From: a virus
IMG/VR virus record: IMGVR_UViG_3300030419_007568
Location: 1 to 52,260 of that record
Reading direction: 5' to 3' (one strand)
Length of the DNA: 52,260 nt
Shown here: in pieces, positions 18,179-52,192 of the stretch
Layout: the number at the start of each line of letters is the position of its first letter
How positions within the stretch are numbered: the stretch's first letter is position 1
Notes under the pieces: generated by a model
Seen by the model: the letters and a program-made list of their open reading frames with translations, nothing else
The model's database searches: none
What the model was told of the DNA's origin: nothing
Position numbers and translations under genes: made by a program

Positions 18179-19461
18179 TATACTTCTATTTCCCCGTCTT
18201 TGGTAACAAGATGTGGGTACGGCATTGGAAATAGTAATTTTCCGCCAGACTGAATATATTCTTTTTCTCTTTCCACAATCTCATCTTTAAAATACCAGGG
18301 CAGAACCAGCATACAACTAGGATTTAGCGATCGTGCGTGTTCTTCTGAAATCAATTCTATGTCAGTTCCTAAAGTTTTTAGTCCTACTTTATCTGGGTTT
18401 CTCTCGCTTATGTACGGGAGCATCTGTTTATCTATGCCGAAAAGCTGAAGTAACATGTTTCCTTTTGTTGATGCTCCAAGACCAATTACAAACTCGCCTT
18501 TGTTAAGTTCTGCTAACATTGAGTTTTTAATTCTGTCTCTAAGGTCTTTGATCTTATCGTAGAAGTTAACATAAGTCTGGGGATTATACAGATCTAATTT
18601 ATCCTCTTCTTCTAGGAGGGTTCTGAGGGCTTGGGATTCTTGATCTGGGTGGTCAATATGTTTTATGAAAACCCTGGCGCTTCCTCCGTTGACATTATTT
18701 GTACTTGCATCAACAATTTTTAAGCCGTTCCTTTTCATAAGAGTGTTTAGAACTTGTAAAGAATAATACTCTAAGTGTTCATTACAAATGTCGTAGAAAT
18801 TAATATTCTCCAACATCAATGGAAGATAACTCAACTGTATACACCAAACACCATCCTTGTCAAGACATTTTTTAATGTCTTTCACGAAGCTGTTCGGATC
18901 GTCCAAATCATAAAACATAGCACAACTGGTAAATATCTTTACTTTCTCTTCCCCAATAGCTGAACTTACGGCATCAAAAGAGAAATAATCATTAACAATT
19001 CTTATATTTTCATTAACGTGAGACCAGTTAATATTTTCCGCTGGCTCGACGCCAACTCTACGCAAATCTTCGGGAAAGTAAGACAGCATAGTGCAGTCGT
19101 TAGCGCCAATATCTACAACAATTTCACCCGGATTACAAGACACTCTTGATGTGACATCTGATACTACATCCTTAAGGTCTTTTCTCATAGTGTCGCTTAC
19201 GGCTGACCTATAAAAATATTGTTTGTATAACAAATCAGGTTTAACTGTTTCCTTTAATTGCAAAAGACCACAATTGTTTTCATCTTTTGATTTATCGCAC
19301 AACAGGAGTGTCTGTGTAACTTTTAAATCTGATAGTTTATTGTTTTCATTCGAGATGACAAATGTTGGCGACAAATGCTGTTCTTCAATTTTGATAACTT
19401 CGATTAGGTCCGAACAACCACAAATTCTGCATCTTTGAATATTTGTAAAATGGTTTGCCAT
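18178..19461 (-). CDS. Sugar C-methyltransferase (three-domain, TylC3-type)
   Basis: A 427-residue SAM-dependent methyltransferase of the type that methylates carbon atoms of NDP-deoxysugars. Three parts are visible: an N-terminal putative zinc-binding domain (CRICGCSD near residues 11-18 with a further Cys pair CDKSKDENNC), a central Rossmann methyltransferase domain (EIVVDIGANDCTML, motif I, near residue 110) and a C-terminal domain with the GLGASTKGNMLLQ motif typical of this architecture. Length and domain order match NDP-hexose 3-C-methyltransferases. The sugar substrate in this phage is not determinable. Confidence 0.82.
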   Translation of the reverse strand: MANHFTNIQRCRICGCSDLIEVIKIEEQHLSPTFVISNENNKLSDLKVTQTLLLCDKSKDENNCGLLQLKETVKPDLLYKQYFYRSAVSDTMRKDLKDVVSDVTSRVSCNPGEIVVDIGANDCTMLSYFPEDLRRVGVEPAENINWSHVNENIRIVNDYFSFDAVSSAIGEEKVKIFTSCAMFYDLDDPNSFVKDIKKCLDKDGVWCIQLSYLPLMLENINFYDICNEHLEYYSLQVLNTLMKRNGLKIVDASTNNVNGGSARVFIKHIDHPDQESQALRTLLEEEDKLDLYNPQTYVNFYDKIKDLRDRIKNSMLAELNKGEFVIGLGASTKGNMLLQLFGIDKQMLPYISERNPDKVGLKTLGTDIELISEEHARSLNPSCMLVLPWYFKDEIVEREKEYIQSGGKLLFPMPYPHLVTKDGEIEV

Positions 19462-19464
19462 TTA

Positions 19465-20298
19465 TTAGACTCCTCTTAGTGATTTTCTTTTTTCTAGCTC
19501 TGAACCCATAACTTCTCTTGGTCCTGATTTTCCCATGGACATTTCCACCGTTCTAATACCCTTCACAAGCTTCATAAGCCCCATAGGTTCGACAGACGAT
19601 AGTTGATCTGAGCCCCACATTGTTCTGTCCAATGTCACATGTCTCTCAACCCACTCCGATCCCAGAGCAACTGCGGCAAAGGTTGAAACTAAGCCATACT
19701 CATGACCGCTATATCCTATTTGTGCTTCTGGGAATTTATGCTTAAGGTGGTTAATGTAGTTTAAGTTTAATTCCTCGTACTTGCTTGGGTACGATGAATT
19801 TGTATGCATGATAACTTCTGGGTTACAAATATTTACACATTCTTCGATTTCTTGTTCTGTGCTCATACCTGTTGAAATTATTAAGGTGTCAAAAGCCTCT
19901 CTTGCTTTTTTGCACAACTCTAAATCTGTAATCAAAGCAGATGGGATTTTGCCAATATTCGTATATTTTACCATAAAGTCAACTGATGGTATGTCCCACA
20001 CAGAGGAAAAGCACTGGATTCCGATTTCCTCGCAGTGTCTGTATATTTCGTCGTATTCTTGTTCTTCGAACTCAATTTTTTTCTTGTAGTCGATATATTT
20101 TATTTCACCCCAAGGGGTTTTTCTAAGCTTGTCTTTTTGCTCTTCGGGGACACAGATATCCGGCGTTCTTTTTTGGAATTTTACATAGTCGCAGCCCGCT
20201 AGGGACGAAGCGTTTATTATTTTTTTAGCTAAATCTACGGAACCATTGTGGTTTATTCCTATCTCCGCTATAATTTTAGTCACTATCTTTTTTTCCAT
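19465..20298 (-). CDS. neuB: Nonulosonic acid synthase, NeuB family, lacking the SAF domain
   Basis: A 277-residue protein. NeuB-family enzymes condense phosphoenolpyruvate with an N-acetylhexosamine derivative to form sialic acid or a related nine-carbon acid. The TIM-barrel motifs are present: IIAEIGINHNGS, DYVKFQKRTPD, IISTGMST, HTNSSYPS and IGYSGHEYG, and the metal-binding ERHVTLDRTMWGSDQ. The protein ends at the point where other members continue into the C-terminal antifreeze-like (SAF) domain of about 65 residues, which in bacterial NeuB contributes an active-site Arg across the dimer. That domain is not found nearby. The substrate (ManNAc, legionaminic or another precursor) is unknown, since no NeuC-type epimerase is in the window. 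Confidence 0.85.
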   Translation of the reverse strand: MEKKIVTKIIAEIGINHNGSVDLAKKIINASSLAGCDYVKFQKRTPDICVPEEQKDKLRKTPWGEIKYIDYKKKIEFEEQEYDEIYRHCEEIGIQCFSSVWDIPSVDFMVKYTNIGKIPSALITDLELCKKAREAFDTLIISTGMSTEQEIEECVNICNPEVIMHTNSSYPSKYEELNLNYINHLKHKFPEAQIGYSGHEYGLVSTFAAVALGSEWVERHVTLDRTMWGSDQLSSVEPMGLMKLVKGIRTVEMSMGKSGPREVMGSELEKRKSLRGV

Positions 20299-20915
20299 TT
20301 CATAAAATCATAAGGTGTATCTACATCTATAACATCTTCGATAGGATAGAACACGGTATGGTTATTGTACATGTTATTGTTAAGGGTGTTTAGCGAAAAA
20401 ACTTTGAAGATACAAACAAAGTGAGAAATCTCAAAACATTCTGGATAATCTTGTCTTCTATATAGATCATGTTTGATTACCTGATCTCCTTTGTTTCCTT
20501 CTTTTGAGAACATACACAGGTAAGGGTGCGATAGCAGTTTTTTAGAACATAGAAGCGAATTTGGTTTTTCTGTTTCAAAGTATTTTAAAGCGTCCTCGAT
20601 ATTTCTCCAAGTTCTTTCAGGGTATGTTAAATAAAGCATTACAACTGTGTCATCTTGATTCATTTTGAATTTTTGTGTGACATCCTGCATCACGCTTTTG
20701 ATCGTTGTTTCATCCTTTGCTAGATCTTTGCTTCTTTTTAATATTTTGGCACCGCACAACTCAGCTTTTTTTAATATTTCTTCGTCATCAGAAGTAACTA
20801 TAGTTCTATCCCGCATGTATGCTGGAATTGAATTAATAGTGCTATCAAAAAGTTTTCTATTTTTAAGCGGGAAACCTTTAGATCCTTGTCTCGCCGGTAT
20901 CACATACCAAATCAC
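20283..20915 (-). CDS. neuA: CMP-nonulosonate (acylneuraminate) cytidylyltransferase
   Basis: About 210 residues. It activates a nonulosonic acid with CTP. The N-terminal nucleotide-binding motif IPARQGSKGFPLKN is the NeuA variant of IPAR-GSKG-P-KN, and DRTIVTSDDEEIL and a late DVDTPYDFMKW segment fit the family. The start is a GTG overlapping the upstream TGA (GTGA) with AGGA eight bases before it. The alternative upstream start would add 11 residues inside the preceding gene. It follows neuB by reading direction with a 16-base overlap, the usual pairing for sialic-acid-like sugars. Confidence 0.85.
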   Translation of the reverse strand: MIWYVIPARQGSKGFPLKNRKLFDSTINSIPAYMRDRTIVTSDDEEILKKAELCGAKILKRSKDLAKDETTIKSVMQDVTQKFKMNQDDTVVMLYLTYPERTWRNIEDALKYFETEKPNSLLCSKKLLSHPYLCMFSKEGNKGDQVIKHDLYRRQDYPECFEISHFVCIFKVFSLNTLNNNMYNNHTVFYPIEDVIDVDTPYDFMKWKKR

Positions 20916-21775
20916 TTTATCTTTCCTTTCGGAAAAACATCGTACCAAGATAACTCATTAAGATTTACAATTTTTGCCCCCAAGTTAGTGGCGCTATCCA
21001 ATAGTATGCTCATGTCCGATAGGAGGTTTTCACTGTTTTCTTGCCACATGGTATAATGTCCCATGGGTATTGATTTTTTATCGTTCGCATAACCCCGGCT
21101 ATAATCTAAATCCATCCCTGAAATATAGATAGGGCTGCATCCCATCAGAATAGCAAAAGCTATCGCATGTAAGGCAACAGTATCACCTGTGCTGTAGTGC
21201 TTTTCGCATTTTGTTAATTTTTGTAAATGCTCTTGAATGGTTAATTCGTTTTTTTCTATTCCCTTGCAGCACCTACCATACAGGTCAAACCCAGCCCAGC
21301 CCTCTCTTCCGCCGATGCGAGGTGGATGCCACATAATATTGTTATTGCCATACCCTTTAAAATCAAAGTTATTATTTTCTGTATGATAATCTTTGAAATT
21401 TTTCAGTATCGTAATACAATTATGACCCTTAAAGTGTCTTTGATCATATGGCAAATAATCACAAGTTAGGGTTTTTTGAATATACTCGTCAGAAGAATCA
21501 TCCCCATCTTTTGAATACAAAACCGGAGATCCATACTCGTTCATCTTTTTGTGCATTAATGGTATTGAATATTCACTATTTGAAATAACCCAGTAATTTG
21601 GTGATATGTCAAAATGATCGTACCAATTATTCACAGAAAAACGAATCAAGTTGTCAGACTTTTGCATATCAACTATTTTTTCTCTATCTTTATTCAAACT
21701 TGGACCATGGGCGCAAATGGCTGCTGGTTTTCCTTTGTGAATATTGATTATATCAGCTATCTTTAACTTCGTCAC
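20912..21775 (-). CDS. Glycosyltransferase-like protein, GT42 sialyltransferase/DUF115 fold
   Basis: A 287-residue protein. Near the N-terminus it has AAICAHGPSLNKD and then RFSVNNW. Near residues 200-230 it has STGDTVALHAIAFAILMGC followed by IYISGMDLDY. The order GPSL / R-x-N / (S/T)(S/T)G.....A.A...G...IY.SG(I/M)D is shared by GT42 sialyltransferases (CstII) and by DUF115/MptE-like proteins, so the two cannot be separated by eye. Because it is directly coupled to neuA (four-base overlap), transfer of a CMP-activated nonulosonic acid is the most economical reading. It overlaps the Nudix gene by 23 bases. Confidence 0.6.
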   Translation of the reverse strand: MTKLKIADIINIHKGKPAAICAHGPSLNKDREKIVDMQKSDNLIRFSVNNWYDHFDISPNYWVISNSEYSIPLMHKKMNEYGSPVLYSKDGDDSSDEYIQKTLTCDYLPYDQRHFKGHNCITILKNFKDYHTENNNFDFKGYGNNNIMWHPPRIGGREGWAGFDLYGRCCKGIEKNELTIQEHLQKLTKCEKHYSTGDTVALHAIAFAILMGCSPIYISGMDLDYSRGYANDKKSIPMGHYTMWQENSENLLSDMSILLDSATNLGAKIVNLNELSWYDVFPKGKIK

Positions 21776-22193
21776 TTAAAACCTTTTCTTTAGCCCATGA
21801 TATAGCAGGTTTTAGATAATCATAAGTTTTTTCTAACATTTCATCCCAGTCCAGCCACCTTAAATGTTCATGTTCTAAAATACCAGAGTGCCTATTTCTG
21901 ACTATCTTTCCTTCTTGTGTGGTCTCAGCTAAGTATACTATCAATCTATCCGCTTTTATATGGTCTCTCCCCCATTTAAAATTTAGTGCTGTAATACTTG
22001 ACTCTTCTTCTGTTTCTCTAATTGCCGTTTCAAAAAAGTCCTCCCCGTCCTCAACATGCCCCTTTGGTATATCATATCCACCACGAGCCCACAAGCCAAG
22101 AACTTTATAGTCTCCACCAACAACACGGACGACAACAATTCCAGAGCCTGGTGCTTTTGGCGCTGTTTCCCAAGTCCATTTAAAATCTCCCAT
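21753..22193 (-). CDS. Nudix hydrolase
   Basis: A 146-residue protein with a complete Nudix box (G-x5-E-x7-REUxEE) beginning GHVEDGEDFFETAI and ending RETEEESS, near residues 45-67. The family hydrolyses nucleoside diphosphates linked to another group. Placed between the sialyltransferase-like gene and a radical SAM gene, it may cleave a sugar nucleotide or act in housekeeping. Substrate specificity cannot be read. It shares one base with the radical SAM stop. Confidence 0.85.
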   Translation of the reverse strand: MGDFKWTWETAPKAPGSGIVVVRVVGGDYKVLGLWARGGYDIPKGHVEDGEDFFETAIRETEEESSITALNFKWGRDHIKADRLIVYLAETTQEGKIVRNRHSGILEHEHLRWLDWDEMLEKTYDYLKPAISWAKEKVLSDEVKDS

Positions 22194-24175
22194 TATCTCT
22201 TAAACCCACTAAGAGGATTGAGAATATCCGTTGTTTTGTGTTTTTTTGTTATTTTTGTTCTTTTTGTCTTGCAAGCACCAACTCTTCTGCCCCACCACAA
22301 AGTCTCTTTACCCCATTCGTATAAATCACCATCATAATTCTTAGCATTAAATTCAATTTCGTTTTTATACTTTCTGAGTTTTGATTTTCTGGTAATGACG
22401 TCGTGAATGTTGTACTTAAATACTCTCCTGATGGGGTAAGTAATGGTGGGATCCAGAATCCCGACTTTTTGATATTCAAATAAATCATCTAAAACGTCTT
22501 GTTCTATTTTGACACCTAAATACCTTTTGATCAAGTCGAGCACCTCTAGGTAATATCTTTCTTTGTGCATACAGACATTGATGGCGGTAGCTTCTTCAAA
22601 GTCCCAGCCAAAGTTTTCTCTAACTTCACCAATAATTCGACCCCACGGCTGTGTGGCCCCAAGCGATCCCTCTAAATTAGTGATAGTTTCCTTTAATTCA
22701 TTGCCAAGAAAACTATCAGGATTATCATAGCAATATTTTAAAAGATTAGTATAAAACTTTTTGTAAGATATATCATGCTCTGCTCTTAAAAACCTACTAA
22801 TAAACTGCGTCAAGCCGAGGTAGTGTCCGGACATTACAGCCCATCTAAAGTAATGCATATTTTTATAGTCTTCGAAAGTTAATTTCTTATGCCCGACTAC
22901 CATCTTTTCTCTTTCTAGTTCATTGTCTCCAGATATATCATAATGATTAAAAGCTTGAAACGTGCTGATGATTTGCAGTTCATATTCGTCTATATAAGAT
23001 TGCATACCAAACGGAGTGTTCGGTAAAGCCGTCATGGCATATATTCCAATATAATTGTGTTGATCTAATTCAATCACATCGCTGATGCCTTGGATAAATG
23101 TCTCTAGCGTTTCTTCTGGTAATCCTAAGATCAACTCAACGTAAGCCGGTACTTTTGCTTTATTATACATCTTAAGAAACTCGCCCAATTTGCCATCGTC
23201 TAGGTTCCTTCTTTTTACGGCTTTAAGGGTATCAGGGTTTCTCGATTGTAATGCTACCGTGATCCCTTTATCCATACCTGAGTCCGTAAAAAGTTTTGCA
23301 AGCTCTAAGACTTTGTCCGCTTTGTTTTTAGCCCAGTCACATCTGTGTTTATCCGGATATCCAGTTTCTTTTTTCTTTTTTACAAAATATTTGGTCACCT
23401 CTAAGTGGTTCGGAAGTAGCCCAAAGTTTGAATCAGCATTATAGACAAAAGCCACCTTGTTGTCTGCCATCCAATCTATCTCTTTAAAAACTTTGTCTAA
23501 ATCTTGCCATTTAATCCTTTGATAATATTTCGTCCCAATCTCACAAAAAGTACACTGATAAGGGCAACCTCTCGTTGTCTCCAGGGTTGCCTCCAAAACA
23601 TAGGGACAATCCTTTGCTATTTCGTCGAACAAACCATTTAGATAAGGACTTGGCATACCATTAATGTCCGGTATTCGGTCTCGGCTAGGGGTTACAAAGG
23701 TTGATAAATCTTCAAGAGGAACAGAGCATCCGGCCACTGCGGTCCAGTCTTGTTCCTCTTTGGGTTTTAAATTTTCTAAAAGTACATCCTTGAATGTAAA
23801 TTCGCCTTCGCCGTGGACTATAATATCCACATATGGATTATCCTCAAAAAATCCTTGGCTACGGTCTTGAATGGGTGGGTACCATCCCCCAAATACGATC
23901 TTACAATCAGGCCACCTCTCTTTTATTCTTTTCGAAATGTCTCGATTAAACTTCCAGTTCCAAACAAAACAACTAAAACCTATAACCGAAGGATCTTCGA
24001 TCTGTTCTATAATTTCGTCCATGTCTTGTCTATAATAAAACCAACCATCGAGCTTGTAGTTGTTTGTTATTTGTTCATCCAAAATACAGTAAGACCAGAT
24101 AAGCCCTGTACTATAAGGAAGCTTCATCTGGTTTGCAATTATGTCATTGATTTCGAACAAGTAAACGTTTTGCAT
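22193..24175 (-). CDS. B12-binding-domain radical SAM protein
   Basis: A 660-residue protein. The N-terminal 140 residues form a cobalamin-binding-type Rossmann domain (IGFSCFVWNW, KIVFGGWYPP) without the DxHxxG His loop. A radical SAM domain follows with the [4Fe-4S] motif CxxxCxxC at C204, C208 and C211. A SPASM-like extension was not seen. Members of this class catalyse difficult methylations or rearrangements, including on sugars and lipids. It is located inside the sugar cassette. The substrate is not predictable. It is preceded by a 41-base AT-rich gap from the aminotransferase gene. Confidence 0.82.
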   Translation of the reverse strand: MQNVYLFEINDIIANQMKLPYSTGLIWSYCILDEQITNNYKLDGWFYYRQDMDEIIEQIEDPSVIGFSCFVWNWKFNRDISKRIKERWPDCKIVFGGWYPPIQDRSQGFFEDNPYVDIIVHGEGEFTFKDVLLENLKPKEEQDWTAVAGCSVPLEDLSTFVTPSRDRIPDINGMPSPYLNGLFDEIAKDCPYVLEATLETTRGCPYQCTFCEIGTKYYQRIKWQDLDKVFKEIDWMADNKVAFVYNADSNFGLLPNHLEVTKYFVKKKKETGYPDKHRCDWAKNKADKVLELAKLFTDSGMDKGITVALQSRNPDTLKAVKRRNLDDGKLGEFLKMYNKAKVPAYVELILGLPEETLETFIQGISDVIELDQHNYIGIYAMTALPNTPFGMQSYIDEYELQIISTFQAFNHYDISGDNELEREKMVVGHKKLTFEDYKNMHYFRWAVMSGHYLGLTQFISRFLRAEHDISYKKFYTNLLKYCYDNPDSFLGNELKETITNLEGSLGATQPWGRIIGEVRENFGWDFEEATAINVCMHKERYYLEVLDLIKRYLGVKIEQDVLDDLFEYQKVGILDPTITYPIRRVFKYNIHDVITRKSKLRKYKNEIEFNAKNYDGDLYEWGKETLWWGRRVGACKTKRTKITKKHKTTDILNPLSGFKR

Positions 24176-24216: not shown

Positions 24217-24873
24217 CTATTTTTTGAATATATCATACTCAGACAAGTCTTTGTAAGCCCAATCTCCACCTGTGTCTTCGTTTTCTGGATCGAGTTCCTC
24301 AAAAAGTAAAATCCCTCTAGCTGCCTGTTCTGGTGTCATATACATGTTCCATCCCAAAATTTTGTGATCATCTTTTTCGTAGGGAACTTTTAAATTCCTT
24401 CCCTCGTATCGTGCAATCTTAAACCATTCGTAGGCATCCTTGTCATCTGTGAATATCATTCCGCCCTTACCAATCTTTAATCTCTTCCTGTGGTGAAAAG
24501 AAACACACTGGTAAGACCCTGGGACATACATTCCTTTTGTAAATCTTGTAGCTCCGTCATAAACTGGGGTTGGTTTTAATTGATAAACCCCAGACCACTC
24601 AACGTCTTCAAATTTTACGGTACACCCGGCATGTTTAATCATCCCTGGGACAGAGAGCCAGGTCTTTGAAGGAATTGTTATCTCCCCTTGAAAATTCAAA
24701 TATTTTAAACAAAGAAACATCCCGTCAGTACAATTGTCAACAGATACGGCGTATTTGCTACCAGCGAAAGTTGCTAATTTTCTCTCAAAGATATCAACTA
24801 TGTCCCAAGGATCAACAACCCTGTATCCTTGTCTTTCCAATAACGGAACAACGCTCTCAATTGGTTCAAACAT
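24217..24873 (-). CDS. Short DegT/DnrJ/EryC1/StrS-type aminotransferase
   Basis: A 218-residue protein, much shorter than the usual 370. It keeps the PLP-domain core: YAVSVDNCTDGMFLCLK near residue 40, TIPSKTWLSVPGM, the FHHRKRLKIGKGGMIFTDD region carrying the candidate PLP Lys and GG turn, and the start of the domain that follows. The C-terminal substrate/dimer domain is essentially missing and the protein ends in an acidic tail. Sugar aminotransferase activity would need a different dimer arrangement. I recall similarly short relatives in marine phage genomes, so it may be a functional mini-version rather than a fragment. Confidence 0.7.
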   Translation of the reverse strand: MFEPIESVVPLLERQGYRVVDPWDIVDIFERKLATFAGSKYAVSVDNCTDGMFLCLKYLNFQGEITIPSKTWLSVPGMIKHAGCTVKFEDVEWSGVYQLKPTPVYDGATRFTKGMYVPGSYQCVSFHHRKRLKIGKGGMIFTDDKDAYEWFKIARYEGRNLKVPYEKDDHKILGWNMYMTPEQAARGILLFEELDPENEDTGGDWAYKDLSEYDIFKK

Positions 24874-24879
24874 TTTTTC

Positions 24880-25548
24880 TCACTTTTCAAAAAAATTATA
24901 ATAACTGCCAACAACAAACTTGGTGCCCTTCTCGGCTGATGCTTTGTTGCTTTCGGGGTCATACCTGTCAAGCGGAAGAACCCTAAAATCCATACTAACC
25001 CTGGTTAATCCTGTTTCATTGGGTTTATTGCCATGGGTACACTTATTGCCGTTAAAGATAGCAAACTCATCTTTTTTTAAATTTACCGGGAAAAAATCCT
25101 TAAGCCCTGGCACTGACTCAATCCACATTGCCTGTGTATTGACAGAATCTGTTAATGCTATTTGAAAGTTTATTTCTCCCTCGGGGTGTTTGTGGTCTTT
25201 GTCACTGTCGTAGTGCCACTTATTTACTGCCTTTTTGTCAGGCAAGTGAACCCTAAAAGATGGAAAACCTTGGTAACAAAAAGATTGACTAAAGAAAGGT
25301 GACACAACCTCCTCTATAAAAAGTCTGTATGCTTTTTTGATCTCAGTGTTTTTTGTTTCATCGTTCAACGACGAGTAGAACATCTTGTGATAATCTGTTT
25401 TTACCTCGTTGTGGAACCCAAGCTCATAGTCTGGAAATAATTCGTGCCTGTATTTGTGCAGGAGGGAGAGGTCGGACACTTTGAATATTTTCTCTACCTC
25501 TTGTGTGAACTTATACCTTTGTTTGTCATACTTGAGAATTTTAACCAT
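24880..25548 (-). CDS. Putative Fe(II)/2-oxoglutarate oxygenase, StrG-like
   Basis: About 222 residues. It contains a NKWHYDSD segment (His and Asp of a 2-His-1-carboxylate facial triad) and, further on, CTHGNKPNE (second His) and GLTRVSMDFRV (Arg for 2-oxoglutarate). This order and the DFR ending resemble StrG, a protein of streptomycin clusters, and related 2OG oxygenases. Hydroxylation or oxidation of a sugar or lipid is inferred. The chosen ATG overlaps the upstream stop (ATGGTTAA) with AGGA ten bases before it. Longer starts would run deeper into the fucosyltransferase gene. Confidence 0.65.
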   Translation of the reverse strand: MVKILKYDKQRYKFTQEVEKIFKVSDLSLLHKYRHELFPDYELGFHNEVKTDYHKMFYSSLNDETKNTEIKKAYRLFIEEVVSPFFSQSFCYQGFPSFRVHLPDKKAVNKWHYDSDKDHKHPEGEINFQIALTDSVNTQAMWIESVPGLKDFFPVNLKKDEFAIFNGNKCTHGNKPNETGLTRVSMDFRVLPLDRYDPESNKASAEKGTKFVVGSYYNFFEK

Positions 25549-26422
25549 CTCGTCGTAATCCTTTCTTGATAATTTCATAAAAGAAATCATCTTGTATCAT
25601 GTAATGTTTTGCTGCCTCATAATTTTCTTTTATGTAAGGCATCATCTCATAATACTTCTCTTTTGAAATGTCGTTAAGAATATCCTTAAGTTCACTCGGA
25701 TGGTTAAACTGTAGAATTCCCTTGGGGTTGAAAAAGTCACCTATATTTTTTGGTCCCCAATAAATTGGCACAGTGCCAGTTATCGCACAGTCTAATATTT
25801 TGTCTGTATAATAATACTCTTTCTGCACATTCTCTGTAGCAATTTGAAACATGTAGTCCTTTAGTGTCTCAAGCTTATCATCAACAAAATTTCCAACTCC
25901 TGCTCCGTAATAATCTATTTCATATGAAAGATCTAAGTTAGGTATAATACTTTTGGCAATTATGTGCCTTAATTTGTGCCCAAAAAGTTGTGTCTTTAGC
26001 GAATAAGGGAACGATATAAGTTTAGTTTTTTGATGTATTTTACACCCATCCGTTCTAATTGCAGCAGTATCGCCAGGGCAAAACACATAGTTTTTACCTC
26101 TTTTGATGAGATCAATGTCAAAAGTTAAGATCAGATCATAATGATCCTCATATTGAACTATTACCTCATAAGCCCACGGCAGAAGCTCTCGTGGTTCTTG
26201 TATAATTGCTACTTTATATGTTGACTGAACCTCAGCTACTCTGTGAAGCTGTTTGTCAGTAAAAATAGTTATCCCCTCAAAAGGGTTCTGGTCTCTGACA
26301 TACTCGACATATGTTGGTTTTCTCCAAAACTCTTTTGGACAAGCGGCTGCCATTGCGGATTCGCTAAAACTGTCCTGCAAGGCAGTCAAATCAAATCTAT
26401 TTATAAGCTCTTTCTTTACCAT
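25541..26422 (-). CDS. Glycosyltransferase family 10 (fucosyltransferase-like)
   Basis: A 293-residue protein. The C-terminal third has the GT10 signature YYTDKILDCAITGTVPIYWG, followed by a hydrophobic ILQF segment, matching the Y-xTEK-x-x-x-x-x-x-GxVPVxxG donor-binding motif of alpha-1,3/4-fucosyltransferases, with Lys in TDK binding the GDP diphosphate. It transfers L-fucose from GDP-fucose, which gmd and fcl in the same cassette would make. It overlaps the rfbB gene by seven bases and its own downstream neighbour by eight. Confidence 0.85.
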   Translation of the reverse strand: MVKKELINRFDLTALQDSFSESAMAAACPKEFWRKPTYVEYVRDQNPFEGITIFTDKQLHRVAEVQSTYKVAIIQEPRELLPWAYEVIVQYEDHYDLILTFDIDLIKRGKNYVFCPGDTAAIRTDGCKIHQKTKLISFPYSLKTQLFGHKLRHIIAKSIIPNLDLSYEIDYYGAGVGNFVDDKLETLKDYMFQIATENVQKEYYYTDKILDCAITGTVPIYWGPKNIGDFFNPKGILQFNHPSELKDILNDISKEKYYEMMPYIKENYEAAKHYMIQDDFFYEIIKKGLRRDG

Positions 26423-27366
26423 ATAAAGTTTTCTTTATACCACTTAGTTATGTGTTTTATCTCTTCATCAAAATTTTTCTCTGGTCTCCAGCCCAAGGAT
26501 TTTATCTTAGTATCATCAAGAGCATATCTTAAATCCTGACCTACTCTAGAATATGAGTAGTCAATATGTTTTTCCCAGTCCTTGTCTGTGTCATAAAAAG
26601 ATTTGATTATCTTTCGCACAGTCTCTTTGTTCTGTTGTTCAAAATCTCCCGCAATGTTGTAAATCTCATTTACTTGTCCTTTTTCTATGAGAGTTAATAT
26701 TGCATTTGCTGTATCATCAGCGTGTAGCCAATTTCTTACAGGTGTGCCATTGTTGTGTAAGCTTATCTTCCTTCCCCTCAAGAGGTTTTTCACACATAGA
26801 GGTATTAATTTCTCGGGATATTGTCTAATACCATAATTGTTCGTTGGTCTAGCTATCATATACTCTATATCATATGTCCTAGACCACGCCATGACTAGCA
26901 TATCTGCTGATGCCTTGGCTGCTGAATATGGGTTACTTGGGTGTAGTAAGTCTGTCTCTGTGTGGTGTCCTTCTATAATATCCCCATAAACCTCGTCCGT
27001 GCTTATGTGTAAGAACACTGGTCTGTTGCCACAGTTTTTTGGTTTATTCTTTACTAAATCAAGTAAATTTTTTGTTCCTAAGATATTTGTGCTTACAAAT
27101 TCATCACTATCAATAATGCTGTTCCCAACGTGTGATTCAGCAGCAAAATTAACAACGTAGTCACAATCATATAGAAATCTCATATCCTTAATATCAGTTT
27201 TTTCAAACCTGAAGTTTTTATACTTTTCAAACTCTTTAAGAATTTTGGTGTTTGCCGCATATGTGATTTTATCAACACCAAAAACCATCCAGCCCTTGTC
27301 TAGTGCCTTCTTAACAAAATAAGATGGGATAAAACCTAAACATCCCGTGACATAGATTATTTTCAT
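26416..27366 (-). CDS. rfbB: dTDP-glucose 4,6-dehydratase
   Basis: A 316-residue extended SDR. Diagnostic segments are GCLGFIPSYFV (NAD loop), NFAAESHVGNSI, HISTDEVYG (Asp-Glu catalytic pair), NPYSAAKASAD (Tyr-x3-Lys) and RPTNNYGIRQYPEKLIP. It converts dTDP-glucose to dTDP-4-keto-6-deoxyglucose. No rfbA, rfbC or rfbD is present in the window, so the intermediate is likely supplied to the E1-type dehydrase next door rather than to rhamnose. Its start overlaps the stop of that gene by four bases (ATGA). Confidence 0.9.
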   Translation of the reverse strand: MKIIYVTGCLGFIPSYFVKKALDKGWMVFGVDKITYAANTKILKEFEKYKNFRFEKTDIKDMRFLYDCDYVVNFAAESHVGNSIIDSDEFVSTNILGTKNLLDLVKNKPKNCGNRPVFLHISTDEVYGDIIEGHHTETDLLHPSNPYSAAKASADMLVMAWSRTYDIEYMIARPTNNYGIRQYPEKLIPLCVKNLLRGRKISLHNNGTPVRNWLHADDTANAILTLIEKGQVNEIYNIAGDFEQQNKETVRKIIKSFYDTDKDWEKHIDYSYSRVGQDLRYALDDTKIKSLGWRPEKNFDEEIKHITKWYKENFIW

Positions 27367-28739
27367 CTTTCGATGCCACGCTCCTTGAAGAAATCATCTA
27401 AAACATCTTCGATATAATCGAGCTTCTCTGCGGTCAATCCGATATAAGTGCCCAAGAAAAACGTTTGTTTTGTAACAATGTCGGCGTTAGGAAATCTTGT
27501 TACAAGATCGCCGTAATCATTTCCATACTTTTCTGCAAAATCTCTATAAGCAGGATGATACAGACAATTTCCTGTAAAATAAGATCTTGTTTGTACTTTG
27601 TTTTCCTCAAAATGTGAAACAAGCTCTTGTTTGTCAAAAACATCATTTTCTTTCACTGTTAATGCGTAACCAAACCAACAAGGGTCGGCTTTTTCCGTAG
27701 CCTTTGGTAGCATGAAAAAGTCCTCGTATTTAGAAAAAGTCCTTTCCATACGTTTGAAATTCTTACGGCGGGCTTCATCCATCTCTGGCAACTTATCAAG
27801 CTGATGTAGTCCCATTGCTGCCTGGAGATCTAAAGGCTTTGTGTTGAAGCCGATTTCATCAAAAACATAACGGTGATCATAACATATCTTATTCTTTCCA
27901 TCGTTTAACCATTCTTGAAATCTGTCGCCGCAGGCTGTTCCGGCTGTAACATCTCCTGGTTTTCTCTCGTTGCAATAACAAGCCCGTCCCCAGTCTCTAA
28001 TACTGGCTAAAACCTTTCTGATCCTGGCGTTGGAAGTTGCAGCAAAGCCTCCTTCCCCCATCGTCATGTGGTGTGCTGGAAAAAAAGAACAAGTCGAAAT
28101 AAGTCCGAAAGATCCTAATTTTTTCCCATCGTAATAGGAGCCCAAAGCATCACAACTATCCTCTAAAAAGTTTAAATTATACTTTTCAACCAAAGCCATC
28201 AATCTATCCATATTCGGAGGGTTACCAAGAACATGTGCGAAGGTTATTGCTCGAATGTTCGGATCTTTTTCAAGTTCCGCCTCAACCTCATCAAGATTTA
28301 AATTCATACTGGGTAAGTCTACATCAACGAAAACAGGCTCATACCCTGCTTGAATAAGGGGATTGATTGTAGTCGGAAAGCAAACGACTGGGGTGATAAA
28401 TTTAGACCCAGGCGGCATGTGGAATTTTTTCATTGCCAGTGACTTACTTTTGAAAACATTAGCCATCAAAAGATTGGCAGAACTTCCAGAGTTAGTTAAA
28501 ACACCATACCTCTTACCAAGGTGCTCTGGAAATACATTCTCAAAATGTCTTGCTTCTTTTCCGAAAATTAGCCATTCACTAAGTAATATCTTAATAGCGG
28601 AAGTATATTCGTCTGAACTGTAATAGGGTCCTGAGTAATTGACCCAGTCTTCTCCTCTGTTCCAACTCTCTGTTTTTCTTTTTTCGTCGATATACTCTTT
28701 GACTAAATTTAATATTTGATCTACTTTTTCGTTGGACAT
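27363..28739 (-). CDS. rfbH: E1-type NDP-4-keto-6-deoxyhexose 3-dehydrase, PMP and [2Fe-2S]
   Basis: A 458-residue DegT-fold enzyme. The Lys that normally binds PLP is replaced by His in FFPAHHMTMGEGG (H223/H224), the hallmark of RfbH/DdhC/E1 3-dehydrases. The cysteines needed for the [2Fe-2S] cluster are kept with the E1 spacing (C196, then C254 and C256, with C270 after a short insertion), so this is the iron-sulphur type rather than the ColD type. It removes the 3-OH to give a 3,6-dideoxy-4-ketosugar and needs a reductase partner, which is not in the window. It is coupled to rfbB, so a dTDP-linked substrate is likely, although the family prototype uses CDP sugars. Confidence 0.85.
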   Translation of the reverse strand: MSNEKVDQILNLVKEYIDEKRKTESWNRGEDWVNYSGPYYSSDEYTSAIKILLSEWLIFGKEARHFENVFPEHLGKRYGVLTNSGSSANLLMANVFKSKSLAMKKFHMPPGSKFITPVVCFPTTINPLIQAGYEPVFVDVDLPSMNLNLDEVEAELEKDPNIRAITFAHVLGNPPNMDRLMALVEKYNLNFLEDSCDALGSYYDGKKLGSFGLISTCSFFPAHHMTMGEGGFAATSNARIRKVLASIRDWGRACYCNERKPGDVTAGTACGDRFQEWLNDGKNKICYDHRYVFDEIGFNTKPLDLQAAMGLHQLDKLPEMDEARRKNFKRMERTFSKYEDFFMLPKATEKADPCWFGYALTVKENDVFDKQELVSHFEENKVQTRSYFTGNCLYHPAYRDFAEKYGNDYGDLVTRFPNADIVTKQTFFLGTYIGLTAEKLDYIEDVLDDFFKERGIER

Positions 28740-29584
28740 TCCAACCCTCCATATATTTCAAATAAGCCTTTTTGAAATCCCGAAAACAAATCTTTGGGAA
28801 ATGTTTTAGCGCATAGTTTCCAATCACCAGTATAACTGTTAGTTCTTGTATTGTTTAGGGACAAACTATCGTTAGATAAACCAACAGTCCTTTCAAGTAT
28901 TTTTGAAATCTCTCCAAGGTTCATTTTTTCTTCGTAAACAAGGTTTACATCTCTCGGTAAATCAGTTTTTTCGTGGTTGTTCATATAAAATTCTATTGCT
29001 CGACAAACGTCTTTATCATAAAAAAAGTCCATCTTTTTACCTGAGTCTATTTCTGCCTTGGATTGGTTTTTTATTCCCTTATAGAGGATCTTTAATAATC
29101 TGTTTTCTGCCTCGTCAGCACCAAAACAACCAAAAAGCCTAAAGTTATAAACGTTGGAGTTGTGCCTGATAATTTTTCTTGTGATCATGTTTTTTGCTAA
29201 TCCGTAGAAATCTTCTGGCAGGGTGTCAAAAATCTTGTTTTCTTCAAATAAGTCTATATTGTTTCTGCGGTCAAATTCTGCTCCTGATCCAAAATTGATC
29301 ATAAGAGAATATTTTTGACGGCACTCAAATAAGTTTTCAAACATTTTTAAATTTAAAACATAATCCGAAAAAGTATCTGACTGTCCTCTTCTTCCTCCTT
29401 TTATGGCTGTATGGATAACGTAATCCGCTTTGTTGTTTTTAAACCAATCCAAAACCTGTGTTCGATCAGAAACATCCAATTCTTGCCTGGACAAAGGAAA
29501 GACTGTATGACCTTTTTGAATGAAATAATCACTTACTGATTTTCCGAGAAAACCACTAGCTCCTGTAACTAATATTTTTGTCAT
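28721..29584 (-). CDS. NAD(P)-dependent sugar epimerase/reductase (extended SDR)
   Basis: A 287-residue protein with the N-terminal GASGFLGK nucleotide loop, a DVSDRTQ acidic segment, IHTAIKGGR and DFYGLAKNMI, where Y-x3-K is retained. The C-terminal substrate domain is divergent. It could reduce the C4 ketone or another ketone formed by the E1-type dehydrase and split transketolase. It overlaps the transketolase C-part gene by four bases and the dehydrase by 19. Confidence 0.78.
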   Translation of the reverse strand: MTKILVTGASGFLGKSVSDYFIQKGHTVFPLSRQELDVSDRTQVLDWFKNNKADYVIHTAIKGGRRGQSDTFSDYVLNLKMFENLFECRQKYSLMINFGSGAEFDRRNNIDLFEENKIFDTLPEDFYGLAKNMITRKIIRHNSNVYNFRLFGCFGADEAENRLLKILYKGIKNQSKAEIDSGKKMDFFYDKDVCRAIEFYMNNHEKTDLPRDVNLVYEEKMNLGEISKILERTVGLSNDSLSLNNTRTNSYTGDWKLCAKTFPKDLFSGFQKGLFEIYGGLECPTKK

Positions 29585-30057
29585 CGTCTTAAATTAAGGT
29601 AATTTGGTTTGTTATCAAAAAGAAACTCATCAACTATTTCTTCAAGTTCTTCTAAATCTTCTGGCCAATAGCCCGTTATTTTATCAAAGTTTGATATCAT
29701 CTTTTTATCGTCCTCTGCCCAGTGAGAAAACCCAAGATAGCCATAATCTTTATCACGTCCGCCTCCCAATAACTTAACTGGAATTTCTTCATGGTTAACA
29801 TAATTCCTGATAAATTCATAGGGCCTATAAAGAACAAACGGGGTTATCGAATACACCACTGGGATTAATCCCTCTGTGGCAAGCCCACACGCAGCGGCAA
29901 CCATGAGTTGCTCTGATGATCCGAAATCTTGAAACCTGTCTGGAAAGTCTATTTTTATCTTGTCCCAAAGTCCGTATCCAAGATCGCCTGTAAGTAGGAA
30001 AAGTCTTTGATCTTTTCCCATTTTGTCATGCAGTATGCTACTAAATTGTTTTCTCAT
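29581..30057 (-). CDS. Split transketolase, pyrimidine-binding (C) subunit
   Basis: About 158 residues. It corresponds to the pyrimidine-binding domain of transketolase/DXS-type enzymes: LFLLTGDLGYG, then RFQDFGSSEQ, with the catalytic Glu of the family's G-x-x-EQ motif, and aromatic residues (VYSITPFVLYRPYEFIRNYV) for the pyrimidine pocket. The third transketolase domain is absent. The start ATG overlaps the upstream TAA by one base (TAATG). Together with the N subunit at 30655-31299 it can form a thiamine diphosphate enzyme that transfers a two-carbon unit. Such split transketolases occur in branched-sugar and polyketide clusters. Confidence 0.82.
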   Translation of the reverse strand: MRKQFSSILHDKMGKDQRLFLLTGDLGYGLWDKIKIDFPDRFQDFGSSEQLMVAAACGLATEGLIPVVYSITPFVLYRPYEFIRNYVNHEEIPVKLLGGGRDKDYGYLGFSHWAEDDKKMISNFDKITGYWPEDLEELEEIVDEFLFDNKPNYLNLRR

Positions 30058-30665
30058 TACCAAAACCTAACCACACTTGAATGAAAGGGTATTCCTTCAC
30101 TAAATGTGTGTATAACTTGTGTTATAATTTTTTCATATTTTTTATTGACATATTCAAAAACTTCAAAGATTTCTGGTATAGATGTGTCATCAATTATGAG
30201 TAATTTTGAGGTAGCATTCTCCTTTTTATCATCTAATTGCAAAGCAATTTCTGCTAGTTGAAAATCTATCATAGCCATTTCTTTTGTATGATAACCATCT
30301 ATTATACAAACTCCAATATCTAAATCTACTATCTCTTTTTTTGAGAACTTAGACATAAAATCAGATGTTTTCATTTCATGAAATCTAACATTATCGAGTC
30401 CAGCTATATTTTCATGTAAAAGTCTTCTTGTTTGTTTCATTCCGTCTATTTTATTTAATCCATAATCCGGCACTTTTCCGTCGGATATGAACGGATCAAT
30501 ACCATGTATAGTTCTATTCGGAAATTGTTTTGATAGATCCGTTAAGTTGCGACCCTCAAAACAACCTATCTCCAGTATATTTCCCTCGGTAATTGAAAAT
30601 ATTTCCCATATTGAAGATAAAGGTAACAGGGAAAAACTATGTCCTTTAATAATGTTATCTAACAT
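30057..30665 (-). CDS. Class I SAM-dependent methyltransferase-like protein
   Basis: A 202-residue Rossmann protein: ILEIGCFEGRNLTDLSKQ is SAM motif I (residues 30-48), HGIDPFIS motif II and CIIDGYHTKEMAMIDF a metal/acid motif like that of Methyltransf_24 sugar or tetrahydrofolate enzymes. It sits exactly between the two transketolase subunit genes, with a one-base overlap on one side and an 11-base overlap on the other. It therefore probably acts on the product of that enzyme or on a sugar of the same branch. Confidence 0.75.
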   Translation of the reverse strand: MLDNIIKGHSFSLLPLSSIWEIFSITEGNILEIGCFEGRNLTDLSKQFPNRTIHGIDPFISDGKVPDYGLNKIDGMKQTRRLLHENIAGLDNVRFHEMKTSDFMSKFSKKEIVDLDIGVCIIDGYHTKEMAMIDFQLAEIALQLDDKKENATSKLLIIDDTSIPEIFEVFEYVNKKYEKIITQVIHTFSEGIPFHSSVVRFW

Positions 30666-31299
30666 TTTTATCCAACTCTTTTAATGCCAAATTATAATCA
30701 TCCTCACTCATTATGTGATAGTGTGCGTTCAGACCTTTTAGGAAAGAAAATTCATTCACTTTCGTATACCGTATATTTATGTCCGGTAAAAATGCCTGTA
30801 GTCTTTTGACTAGATAAGTTGAGTCTACTGCATCATAAGCAGAATACCCATTAACAGAGACATATACCTCAATATTCTTAAGATTGTTTTCGTAAATAAA
30901 CTTTAAACTTTCCCATATAGAGCCCTCGGCACACTCTCCGTCACTTATCAAGCAATAAACTTTTCTATCCTTATTTGCAAGTGCTTTCCCTACTGCAAAA
31001 GGAAGTCCCATACCCAAGCTTCCCGTAGAACAATATATACCATCTTTTTCATTTCGGTGCGGATGACCACCATGAACTTTAAACAATTTGGATGCATCGG
31101 CTCCTTCGTATTCTTCTAGAGCAACATACAATGCCAAGGCAGCGTGACCACAGGATAAGATAAAAATATCGTCCTCGGACTTGTTTGAGTATATTTCATC
31201 CACCACAGGAAGACAAGAAAAATAGCTCCCCAAGTGAGATAGTCTGTTTTGGAAAGCTATTTCGGTAATTCTTTTTTTCATTCTTATTAGAGTTTCCAT
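30655..31299 (-). CDS. Split transketolase, thiamine-diphosphate-binding (N) subunit
   Basis: About 214 residues. It corresponds to the N-terminal TPP domain of transketolase: SHLGSYFSCLPVVDEIY, SCGHAALALYVALEEY, GGHPHRNEKDG, TGSLGMGLPFAVG and the metal/diphosphate motif SDGECAEGSIWE...NN (near residues 120-140). The start is the ATG with GGAG six bases upstream. An in-frame TTG four codons earlier is less likely. Its partner domain is encoded separately at 29581-30057. It overlaps the glycosyltransferase gene by 13 bases. Confidence 0.82.
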   Translation of the reverse strand: METLIRMKKRITEIAFQNRLSHLGSYFSCLPVVDEIYSNKSEDDIFILSCGHAALALYVALEEYEGADASKLFKVHGGHPHRNEKDGIYCSTGSLGMGLPFAVGKALANKDRKVYCLISDGECAEGSIWESLKFIYENNLKNIEVYVSVNGYSAYDAVDSTYLVKRLQAFLPDINIRYTKVNEFSFLKGLNAHYHIMSEDDYNLALKELDKNVR

Positions 31300-32018
31300 T
31301 TTTCTCTCCAATGAGATTGTATCAAACTATCGTAATTTATTTTAGACCGATGCATTCCCCATGTAGCCTGTTCATCGTGCCATCTATAATTGTATCCCAA
31401 CCAACTTGGAACAGGTAATATAAAAAAACCCTTATCTGCAAGGTCGCAATAAAGATCATAATCAGCGGCACCGCTATATTTCTCTGGGTTTGTTTTTATC
31501 AACCCCTTATCGTATATTTCCCTCTTGTAAAAAACAGTGGGACTTGTTACAGGACACTTATTTACCGCCATATTTTTAAAATGCTCGATGTCATCATATT
31601 GATGACCCACCCTGTTTATCTCATTCCCGTTGGTATCTACTCCTCGGATAGGGCTCTGTATTAAGGAAATTTTATTCCTTAGCTTATCCATAATTTGGAC
31701 ACAGTTTTTTATGTAATCTTTTTCGTAATAATCATCAGAACACAAAGTTGTAATATAATCTCCAGTTGAAATCTCTAACCCTTTTTCTCTTGCCTCATCC
31801 CAGCAAAAGGGGTAAATGTTTTCAGCTTCTGAGAGGATTATGTTATTATTCTTGGAAGCTATATCCTCTAAAATCTTGTATGTGTTATCTGTACTCTCGT
31901 TGTCAACGGCGACTATTTCTATATTGTCGTATTCCTGTTCGATCACCGAGTTTATTGTCTTAGATATGTACTTCTCTGCATTATAACAGGGAATTATAAC
32001 CGATACTCTGGAACTCAT
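31287..32018 (-). CDS. Family 2 glycosyltransferase
   Basis: A 243-residue GT-A enzyme. The N-terminal VSVIIPCYNAEKYI and VAVDNESTDNT are the GT2 donor-binding motifs, and TLCSDDYYEKD supplies the DxD-type metal site. The acceptor and donor sugars are unknown. One base separates its start from the stop of the HAD gene, within the glycan cassette. Confidence 0.85.
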   Translation of the reverse strand: MSSRVSVIIPCYNAEKYISKTINSVIEQEYDNIEIVAVDNESTDNTYKILEDIASKNNNIILSEAENIYPFCWDEAREKGLEISTGDYITTLCSDDYYEKDYIKNCVQIMDKLRNKISLIQSPIRGVDTNGNEINRVGHQYDDIEHFKNMAVNKCPVTSPTVFYKREIYDKGLIKTNPEKYSGAADYDLYCDLADKGFFILPVPSWLGYNYRWHDEQATWGMHRSKINYDSLIQSHWREKWKL

Positions 32019-37488: not shown

Positions 37489-38154
37489 TTATATTCTGTA
37501 GTGGTGAAGCTCGTTAATTTTATCATAGAGCATAGGACTAATTCTTTCTAGAGTATTTTCCTGTCCTAAATAGTAGGCTTCGAAACCAGTCGCAAAATAT
37601 TCTCGCAAAGAAACGGAAGCATATGGTCTTATGAACATTCCCGCCGTAACCATTTGAAGCATGTTCTTTCCAACCCTTTTGTACAAGAACTTATCAAAAT
37701 CTTCATCAAACTTTAAATTATCAAAATCAAACTCCTCTGTCCAATAACCCTCAGAGCGTAGTTCAAAATTTAATTCTTTTCTTTTTCTTCGGAATTCGTT
37801 GATAAGGGTTTCGTCACTGTAAATTAACTCTGGGAATTTCATTTCCATATGGTGTGCAAATTCGTGGACTATGTCATCCATAAGGTCCTTAGAGTTTTCT
37901 TGTTTGTTCGTGATATAAAATATTCCATCTTTATAAACAGCATTGACTTCTCGTTCATCAAATTCTTGTATGTGTTGTATTTTAATACCCTTTAAATCCC
38001 TAAAATAATAAGGGGGAAAACTCCTATCAATTGTTTTTAAAATTGCCTCTAAATCAATACCATCTGGCATTGGGTCGATTTCATGCACTTTAACATTACC
38101 AAATTTAAAGTGTCGAGTTGTGTTCTTAACTTTTTCTAATATGTATTCTCTCAT
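37489..38154 (-). CDS. Putative zinc metallopeptidase (HExxH)
   Basis: A 221-residue protein with the zinc-binding motif HEFAHH at residues 97-102, followed further on by ESLREYFATGFEAYY-like sequence (REYFATGFEAYY), where a Glu is a candidate third ligand. No signal peptide, so it acts inside the infected cell or in virion assembly. The substrate is unknown. Its start overlaps the phoH stop by four bases. Confidence 0.72.
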   Translation of the reverse strand: MREYILEKVKNTTRHFKFGNVKVHEIDPMPDGIDLEAILKTIDRSFPPYYFRDLKGIKIQHIQEFDEREVNAVYKDGIFYITNKQENSKDLMDDIVHEFAHHMEMKFPELIYSDETLINEFRRKRKELNFELRSEGYWTEEFDFDNLKFDEDFDKFLYKRVGKNMLQMVTAGMFIRPYASVSLREYFATGFEAYYLGQENTLERISPMLYDKINELHHYRI

Positions 38155-39538: not shown

Positions 39539-39861
39539 TGGTGGAGGTAGGGAGAATCGAACTCCCGTCTTGTCTAGTTCCATAGAAGGGTCATTCACAA
39601 GGTTAGGTCTGTTTTTTTCGTCAGACAGCCCGCTTGACTAGATCATCTTATTATGGCTGAGATAATCAAAAGCACTTACAGGACACAATACGGCTTTCTG
39701 TTTTTTGGCTGCCGTCGCCTCAAGCTAAGTCAGGTTATTAAGCTGCTTGTGCTAGTTCGAAATCGTCGTTTGCGATTAGAGTTTAAGCGTTTTTAGTGAG
39801 CCACGCTTCCCTCACCCTTGCACCTTTTCTACTTTCCCATCAATCGATACCGTTTACCCCC
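39539..39861 (-). ncRNA. ssrA: Transfer-messenger RNA (tmRNA), one-piece
   Basis: A 323-base RNA. The 5' end GGGGGUA pairs with UACCUCC at the 3' end, giving a seven-pair acceptor stem with G3-U70, the alanine/tmRNA identity wobble. The T-arm is GGGAG-TTCGATT-CTCCC and the 3' CCA is encoded. The internal frame at 39741-39773 follows the conserved ATCGCAAACGACGA resume context and encodes ANDDFELAQAA, ending TAATAA and then the conserved ACCTG. It rescues stalled ribosomes and tags the products. It has its own promoter and terminator. A phage-encoded tmRNA is unusual, and the AQAA end differs from the usual LAA. Confidence 0.93.
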
Positions 39862-51264: not shown

Positions 51265-51339
<75 letters not shown>

Positions 51340-51342
51340 TTA

Positions 51343-51418: not shown

Positions 51419-51419
51419 A

Positions 51420-52102: not shown

Positions 52103-52112
52103 CTCAACTCCT

Positions 52113-52189
<77 letters not shown>

Positions 52190-52192
52190 AAA

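Follow-up and report, generated by a model that had tools for sequence, protein, structure and literature searches.

The window analyzed in this work is the complete 52,260-base IMG/VR virus record IMGVR_UViG_3300030419_007568. Its minus strand, which holds nearly all of its genes, contains a sugar cassette (26416-31311) that encodes an RfbB-like 4,6-dehydratase, an E1/RfbH-type 3-dehydratase, a reductase of the short-chain dehydrogenase/reductase (SDR) family, and the two halves of a split transketolase, referred to here as TKN and TKC. Judged from sequence comparisons, and with a probability of about three in four, this cassette serves, in the infected cell, to make a nucleotide-linked 3,6-dideoxy sugar with a branched chain. 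The case is built on the enzyme families, on their active-site residues, on the linkage of the five genes, and on the replacement of the transketolase in related loci by two other classes of ketosugar-branching enzymes that depend on thiamine diphosphate (ThDP). A first-pass annotation of the same DNA had proposed such a pathway for the interval 27363-31299. Its coordinates and motifs were right, with RfbB (26416-27366) lying just outside that interval, and its branched-sugar logic gains support from gene co-occurrence, from the replacement of the transketolase beside RfbB-E1 by YerE-like and pyruvate dehydrogenase (PDH)-E1-like enzymes, and from a donor site that is retained while the acceptor-phosphate site is lost.

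Probable Enzymes for a 3,6-Dideoxy-4-Ketosugar

The E1 homologue scores above the cut-off of the NCBIfam RfbH model (NF011936, 449 versus 423 bits), and among solved structures, E1 itself is the nearest (3bcx, E = 2.6e-99). In the alignment with 3bcx, His223 of the window enzyme falls on His220 of E1, a position that is Lys (K220) in 3bb8, which agrees with the E1 His substitution reported earlier. Equally exact is the C-x57-C-x-C spacing that had been described for the cluster cysteines: three [2Fe-2S] ligands, Cys196-x57-Cys254-x-Cys256, follow the E1 pattern C-x57-C-x-C-x7-C, whereas the fourth, Cys270, lies 13 residues on instead of 7 and is aligned to the E1 cysteine across an insertion. 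His223 and the cysteines at 196, 254, 256, and 270 are kept in the relatives of the iron-sulfur (FeS) type. For RfbB, TIGR01181 is by far the best model (E = 1.6e-97), at 326 bits versus an equivalog cut-off of 365, and the model of the cytidine diphosphate (CDP)-glucose 4,6-dehydratase reaches only 84 bits; these scores suggest deoxythymidine diphosphate (dTDP) rather than CDP as the nucleotide. The SDR retains the motifs GASGFLG and YxxxK, and its best solved relatives are GDP-fucose synthase and RmlD. The coupling of the dehydratase to rfbB and an SDR gene, claimed from the first reading of the sequence, was borne out, with these two genes flanking that of the 3-dehydratase.

A Compact Split Transketolase with a Changed Acceptor Site

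TKC comprises 158 amino acids from the ATG at 30057, or 160 from the TTG at 30063, and TKN 218 amino acids from the TTG at 31311, its first possible start, the ATG at 31299 being the second. Both halves score above their Pfam cut-offs (45.2 versus 27 bits for TKC with PF02779; 33.3 versus 22 bits for TKN with PF00456). Together they amount to about 376 residues: TKC ends after the pyrimidine-binding (Pyr) domain, with no third domain of the kind that forms the C terminus of transketolase. The best sequence match of both is the split transketolase of Carboxydothermus (6yak for TKN, E = 4e-15; 6yaj for TKC, E = 2e-22). Models generated with AlphaFold2 had predicted local distance difference test values of 93.4 (TKN) and 91.5 (TKC), and Foldseek aligned them with 6yak and 6yaj at template modeling scores, normalized by query length, of 0.81 and 0.89, respectively; 6yak is an active alpha2beta2 split transketolase.

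Residues were mapped on Escherichia coli TktA by alignment, at positions that we take to have ThDP, metal, proton-transfer, donor, and acceptor-phosphate roles in transketolase. Kept are H26, H66, H100, D155, N185, H261, E411, F434, and H473, the catalytic Glu51 of TKC corresponding to E411, and the position of R520 is Arg or Lys in the viral pairs. The acceptor-phosphate site, in contrast, is lost: no equivalent of R358 or S385 is present, and Gly replaces H461. Of 74 distinct viral C-halves, 73 have Leu at the position of D469. Since the donor and ThDP residues are kept and the acceptor-phosphate residues are lost, the pattern fits a retained handling of a ketol donor, the C1 hydroxyl of which is presumably held by H100 and H473, together with an acceptor other than an aldose phosphate.

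The first-pass annotation had described two adjacent transketolase halves with the catalytic Glu and the ThDP motifs intact. Glu51 and the ThDP residues are indeed there, but the ThDP motif starts with SDG in place of GDG and the halves are not adjacent in the window, where a methyltransferase-like open reading frame (ORF) of 202 amino acids parts TKC and TKN. The halves are adjacent in almost all relatives; the other exception seen, L118, has a methyltransferase-like ORF at the same place. The product of the window ORF perhaps has a role in O-methylation.

Conserved Linkage among Viral Loci

The best 80 of 328 confirmed candidates from a profile-query scan of IMG/VR were kept, and 48 non-redundant TKN loci were defined by deduplication and by flanks of at least 7 kb on one side of TKN and at least 6 kb on the other. 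TKC and the SDR gene are present at all 48 and RfbB at 45, and 43 loci have all five genes. A His-type 3-dehydratase of the DegT family was found at 46/48 loci, of the FeS type in 36 and of a non-FeS type in 12, some having both. The genes are arranged either like those of the window (TKN-TKC-SDR-E1-RfbB) or in the order 3-dehydratase-RfbB-TKN-TKC-SDR. Some loci of the latter order have, in place of the [2Fe-2S] enzyme, a relative of 380 residues in which the His is kept but the cysteines are lacking. ColD removes the 3-hydroxyl group without an iron-sulfur cluster, and the non-FeS enzyme of L009 matches E1 best (3bcx, E = 3e-61), followed by ColD. As the non-FeS enzyme retains the diagnostic His and resembles E1 and ColD, 3-deoxygenation seems to be kept in these loci although the enzyme changes. 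The yersiniose-type cassette, consisting of a 4,6-dehydratase, a 3-dehydratase, a ThDP enzyme, and a reductase, is complete in the window.

The window encodes a baseplate wedge protein (phrog_6, E = 8e-22) and an endolysin; a gp23 gene is absent from the window itself, which is a fragment. A T4-type gp23 capsid gene is present on 9 of 18 cassette contigs tested, and the cassette is therefore really in phages. The full phage cassette, with TKN, TKC, E1, and RfbB at 61-70% identity, was also seen in cell-named bins (L020-L022, Maricaulis and Thaumarchaeota metagenome-assembled genomes), which are probably misbinned phage contigs. Matches in a phage collection to Listeria, Acinetobacter, and fecal "phage" records were 25-39% identical and mostly to short unannotated records, and were not used.

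Exchange of the Thiamine Enzyme beside the RfbB-E1 Core

Phage E1 genes were also gathered irrespective of transketolase, and 46 non-redundant E1 loci with full flanks were counted. In loci such as L195, L201, L224, L236, and L255, TKN-TKC is missing, and the slot flanked by the glycosyltransferase and SDR-E1-RfbB holds a protein of 594-637 residues and another of about 310. The larger consists of three domains of the ThDP decarboxylase superfamily (PF02776/00205/02775) and matches 8rph with E = 2e-129 (436 bits), the next matches being acetolactate synthases (about 1e-72, 248 bits). JanthE, whose structure is 8rph (PMC12188165), is YerE-like and joins 2-oxo acids with ketones (PMC12188165, PMC12247030). 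The smaller protein is the ketopantoate hydroxymethyltransferase PanB, which often accompanies the YerE-like enzyme and could supply a 4-hydroxy-2-oxo acid donor; donors of this kind are preferred by ErwE, the YerE-like enzyme of erwiniose synthesis (PMC12247030). A YerE/JanthE-like carboligase and PanB precede SDR-E1-RfbB at L195:6320-9175 and also in L201, L224, L230, L236, L255, and others, as a second, different branched-sugar module that may have its own donor-making enzyme. The third class, seen in L209, L264, L267, and L270, consists of compact pairs resembling PDH-E1 alpha and beta, of about 209 and 178 residues, far below the length of the matched PDH E1 models. For paulomycin, avilamycin, and kibdelomycin, two-carbon branches have been connected with the PDH-E1 class (PMC12247030, PMC4802897).

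The transketolase pair is present at 17 and the YerE-like enzyme at 23 of the 46 E1 loci, and no locus has both. When the PDH-like pair is included, at least one class occurs at 44/46 loci (17 with transketolase only, 20 with YerE only, 4 with PDH only, and 3 with YerE and PDH), the transketolase never being found together with another ThDP class. Four of the six loci that at first lacked a ThDP enzyme hold the PDH-like pair, and L207 and L225 are without all three. On a quick tree of E1, transketolase and YerE must have replaced one another at least 16 times, and individual exchanges are visible at the DNA level. L183 and L220 are 97% identical over 5 kb on one side and 96% identical over E1-RfbB on the other, with the middle block exchanged: GT2-TKN-TKC-SDR in one, GT2-YerE-SDR in the other (GT2, family 2 glycosyltransferase). 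Between L106 and L195, similarity ends at the end of GT2 and returns in E1, TKN-TKC-SDR corresponding to YerE-PanB-SDR, so that the SDR moves together with the ThDP module. In yersiniose synthesis, YerF reduces the new branch, and joint movement with the ThDP enzyme is what would be expected if the SDR did the same.

On balance, these comparisons favor an exchangeable ThDP slot beside the RfbB-E1 core of marine T4-like phages, occupied by a split transketolase, a YerE-like enzyme with or without PanB, or a PDH-E1-like pair; the transketolase form would hydroxyacetylate a 3,6-dideoxy-4-ketosugar, and phages would use the slot to vary the chemistry of their glycans, much like they vary tail fibers.

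Proposed Pathway and Alternative Explanations

From the enzyme families and residues we infer the reactions, the donor, the stereochemistry, the nucleotide, and the target as follows. RfbB would convert host dTDP-glucose into a 4-keto-6-deoxy sugar nucleotide, from which the E1-type [2Fe-2S]/pyridoxamine phosphate (PMP) enzyme, reduced by host ferredoxin/flavodoxin systems, would form the 3,6-dideoxy-4-ketosugar. TKN and TKC would assemble as an alpha2beta2 ThDP enzyme and transfer a hydroxyacetyl group, and hence two carbons, from a host ketol (ketose phosphate or hydroxypyruvate) onto C4, creating a tertiary alcohol. After reduction of the branch ketone by the SDR, the product would be a 3,6-dideoxy-4-C-(1,2-dihydroxyethyl) hexose nucleotide, and the adjoining glycosyltransferases would place the branched sugar into a phage-made glycan. 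The sugar is probably a dihydroxyethyl-branched octose. A transketolase would be expected to take the two carbons, as hydroxyacetyl, from a ketol and not from pyruvate. With respect to the target, a simple hydropathy scan of the window found no multi-span membrane protein of the flippase/polymerase type, and the window has adjacent genes for NeuB, a cytidine monophosphate (CMP)-sugar synthetase, and an MptE/Maf-like protein. Proteins of the Maf type act on flagellin, which they glycosylate in the cytosol. The lack of such a membrane protein and the presence of the MptE/Maf-like gene weakly favor glycosylation of a virion protein over that of host lipopolysaccharide.

Several observations weigh against this pathway. 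Neither the E3 reductase (PF00175, PF00111) nor the nucleotidyltransferase RfbA (PF00483) was found in 13 contigs, one of them of 190 kb, and a ferredoxin gene was not found in the 13 cassette contigs searched; the host must consequently reduce E1 and supply dTDP-glucose. Two of the 48 transketolase loci (L110 and L168) are without a recognizable 3-dehydratase. The ThDP motif starts with SDG and not GDG in 75 of 76 distinct viral N-halves, and the C-subunit of the solved split transketolase has 341 amino acids with an extra domain, compared with the short phage half. Loss of D469 was considered as a marker of E1-linked transketolases and rejected: it is also lost in split transketolases of other polysaccharide loci (Leu again, for example, in Pelagibacteraceae) and so is not specific to the E1-linked pairs. 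Finally, the Fisher p value of 1.2e-7 for the lack of overlap between transketolase and YerE overstates independence, the loci being those of related phages that exchange genes. Because the loci are related and recombining, this value is only a guide, and the repeated exchange is the stronger argument.

Within the same branched-sugar logic, the compact transketolase might use pyruvate or another 2-oxo acid, giving a yersiniose-like acetyl or 1-hydroxyethyl branch. This is conceivable but unlikely, since both halves score best against the split transketolase and keep F434 as well as H100 and H473, the presumed holders of the ketol C1 hydroxyl. In its favor, TKC resembles not only transketolase but also DXS, which uses a donor of this kind, the interchangeable YerE and PDH-E1 modules use 2-oxo acids (PMC12247030), and a PDH pair of the L209 type occupies the same slot.

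It is quite improbable that the cassette makes an ordinary 3,6-dideoxyhexose of the abequose/tyvelose kind, with the transketolase serving another sugar of the large glycan locus. Several sugars are indeed made there, as judged from the genes for NeuB, the CMP-sugar synthetase, GDP-mannose 4,6-dehydratase, a C-methyltransferase, and a KedN5-like radical S-adenosylmethionine (SAM) enzyme, and cyanophage S-H68 has E1 with no transketolase in the annotated neighborhood. However, TKN and a 3-dehydratase stay together in 46/48 loci while other genes of the locus vary, and replacement by a YerE-like or PDH-like enzyme in the same slot would make no sense for an unrelated sugar.

Homology alone would also allow the transketolase to feed nucleotide synthesis or the pentose phosphate pathway of the infected cell, a role ascribed to phage transaldolase genes. 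This is very improbable for a pair in which R358, S385, and H461 are missing, D469 is replaced, and the C-terminal domain is absent, and which is always embedded among sugar-nucleotide genes. That the halves are non-catalytic remnants, decaying or structural, as their shortness and the SDG motif might suggest, is hardly credible given the confident predicted folds and catalytic residues that are invariant both in viral pairs 54-88% identical to that of the window and in bacterial pairs of 40-55% identity.

Gene Layout and Neighboring Genes

In the sense of transcription, from 32018 to 26416, the gene order is GT2, TKN, methyltransferase-like ORF, TKC, SDR, E1-type dehydratase, and RfbB, and neighboring genes of this segment overlap or stand a few bases apart (table). 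The GT2 gene adjoins TKN in most relatives of the same gene order.

Table. Cassette genes of the window and the PDH-E1-like pairs of related loci
Feature	Position	Strand	Evidence or context
RfbB-like dTDP-glucose 4,6-dehydratase, proposed step 1	26416..27366	-	TIGR01181; PDB 2hun, E = 3.8e-71
E1/RfbH-type PMP, [2Fe-2S] 3-dehydratase, proposed step 2 (removal of 3-OH)	27363..28739	-	NF011936; alignment with 3bcx
SDR reductase, proposed reducer of the branch ketone (YerF-like role)	28721..29584	-	PF01370, E = 3.3e-24
TKC, transketolase pyrimidine-binding half	29581..30063	-	PF02779; Foldseek 6yaj
Methyltransferase-like ORF between the transketolase halves	30057..30665	-	PF13578, E = 2.1e-5, just under cut-off
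TKN, transketolase ThDP-diphosphate half	30655..31311	-	PF00456; Foldseek 6yak
GT2 adjoining TKN, candidate transferase for the sugar	31287..32018	-	PF00535, E = 1.4e-28
Compact PDH-E1 alpha/beta-like pairs	L209:4741-5894, L264:13706-14877, L267:10883-12053, L270:12306-13481		near phage E1 genes

Further sugar genes lie at lower coordinates of the window. Those at 16303-19461 encode a GDP-mannose 4,6-dehydratase, an epimerase, and a sugar C-methyltransferase (Methyltransf_13/23/14), and probably make another deoxysugar, C-methylated. The NeuB-like synthase, CMP-sugar cytidylyltransferase, and MptE/Maf-like genes stand in a row at 19465-21775 and correspond to a pathway for a nonulosonic (sialic-like) acid that includes a transferase of the Maf type. 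A B12-binding radical SAM protein (22193-24175) finds its nearest match in the KedN5 C-methyltransferase family (E = 3.6e-73) and is 91% identical in L002, and distant relatives of it are found near several cassettes. The DegT-like protein at 24217-24873 has 218 amino acids versus a Pfam model length of 360; being 89% identical in L002, it is a real compact gene and not a fragment. It is followed by a gene (24880-25590) for a 2-oxoglutarate-Fe(II) oxygenase-like protein with a weak match to TIGR04324 ("sporadic carbohydrate cluster"). Elsewhere, the window has a gene between PhoH and glycosyltransferases (37489-38154) that is kept in relatives and has sub-threshold matches to the zinc-peptidase families PF07737 and PF06167, a tmRNA with the tag ANDDFELAQAA (39539-39861), and clustered tRNA genes for Gly, Thr, Met, and Arg, together with one truncated by the end of the window (51265-52260).

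Comparison with Known Systems

Each of the enzyme families is known, as is the yersiniose-like type of pathway. The first-pass annotation knew of no such pathway in a phage, and none was found in the literature searched, which omits most subscription journals; the terms "split transketolase" and "sporadic carbohydrate cluster" likewise gave no papers there. Cyanophage glycan loci such as that of S-H68 also contain a phage-borne E1/RfbH 3-dehydratase; the S-H68 enzyme is 36% identical, and no transketolase is among its annotated neighbors.

With respect to the transketolase, the split enzyme of Carboxydothermus hydrogenoformans, which works as alpha2beta2, is the best match in sequence and fold, but its halves have 309 and 341 amino acids, compared with 218 and 158 in the phage, where the C-terminal domain is missing. 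The loss of the acceptor-phosphate site in the phage pair was mapped against E. coli TktA. Compact TKN-TKC pairs of a wider family were also seen in Patescibacteria, Omnitrophica, Pelagibacteraceae, and Actinomarina (L024-L040, L051-L066), and we know of no described function for them. The C-half mostly has 156-190 amino acids in L025-L040 and L051-L066, which are loci of the first three groups. Most of these bacterial pairs are without E1 in the flank, and those of Patescibacteria and Omnitrophica retain Asp at the position of D469. In Actinomarina L024, however, the compact pair stands directly behind E1 on a chromosomal contig that also encodes an arginyl-tRNA synthetase and a sugar transferase.

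Other two-subunit ThDP enzymes come from antibiotic clusters. The alphaKADH2 enzymes (KbDH-alpha/beta, Plm8/9, and the avilamycin type) also form a two-carbon branch on a deoxy-ketosugar (PMC12247030, PMC4802897), but they belong to the PDH-E1 family and use pyruvate as donor, whereas the window pair belongs to the transketolase family. Two-gene transketolases are encoded in the miharamycin and amipurimycin clusters of Streptomyces, for which hydroxyacetyl branching of a ketosugar has been proposed without in vitro proof (PMC12247030). Set side by side by description, the phage halves differ in being compact and E1-linked. So far, ketosugar-branching transketolases have only been proposed, from such antibiotic clusters; none has been tested in vitro, and as far as a review reports, hydroxyacetyl branching of a 3,6-dideoxy-4-ketosugar is not yet demonstrated for a transketolase (PMC12247030). 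The phage pairs are small and widely conserved, and their acceptor can be read from the neighboring gene, so that this question becomes directly testable.

The yersiniose A pathway of the Yersinia pseudotuberculosis O-antigen (DdhB-DdhC-DdhD, YerE, and YerF) likewise comprises a 4,6-dehydratase, an E1-type 3-dehydratase, a ThDP enzyme, and a reductase, with YerE acting on CDP-3,6-dideoxy-4-keto-glucose (PMC12247030). The window differs in having a transketolase pair in place of the flavin adenine dinucleotide (FAD)/ThDP decarboxylase YerE, a dTDP-type RfbB as judged by score, no E3, and a phage as its carrier. Related phage cassettes nevertheless carry a YerE-like enzyme in the very same slot. 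The mutual replacement of all three known ketosugar-branching ThDP classes next to the same core genes amounts to a natural swap experiment and makes the slot a source of catalysts that form tertiary alcohols, and it indicates a phage-encoded sugar chemistry richer than that of simple 6-deoxy sugars.

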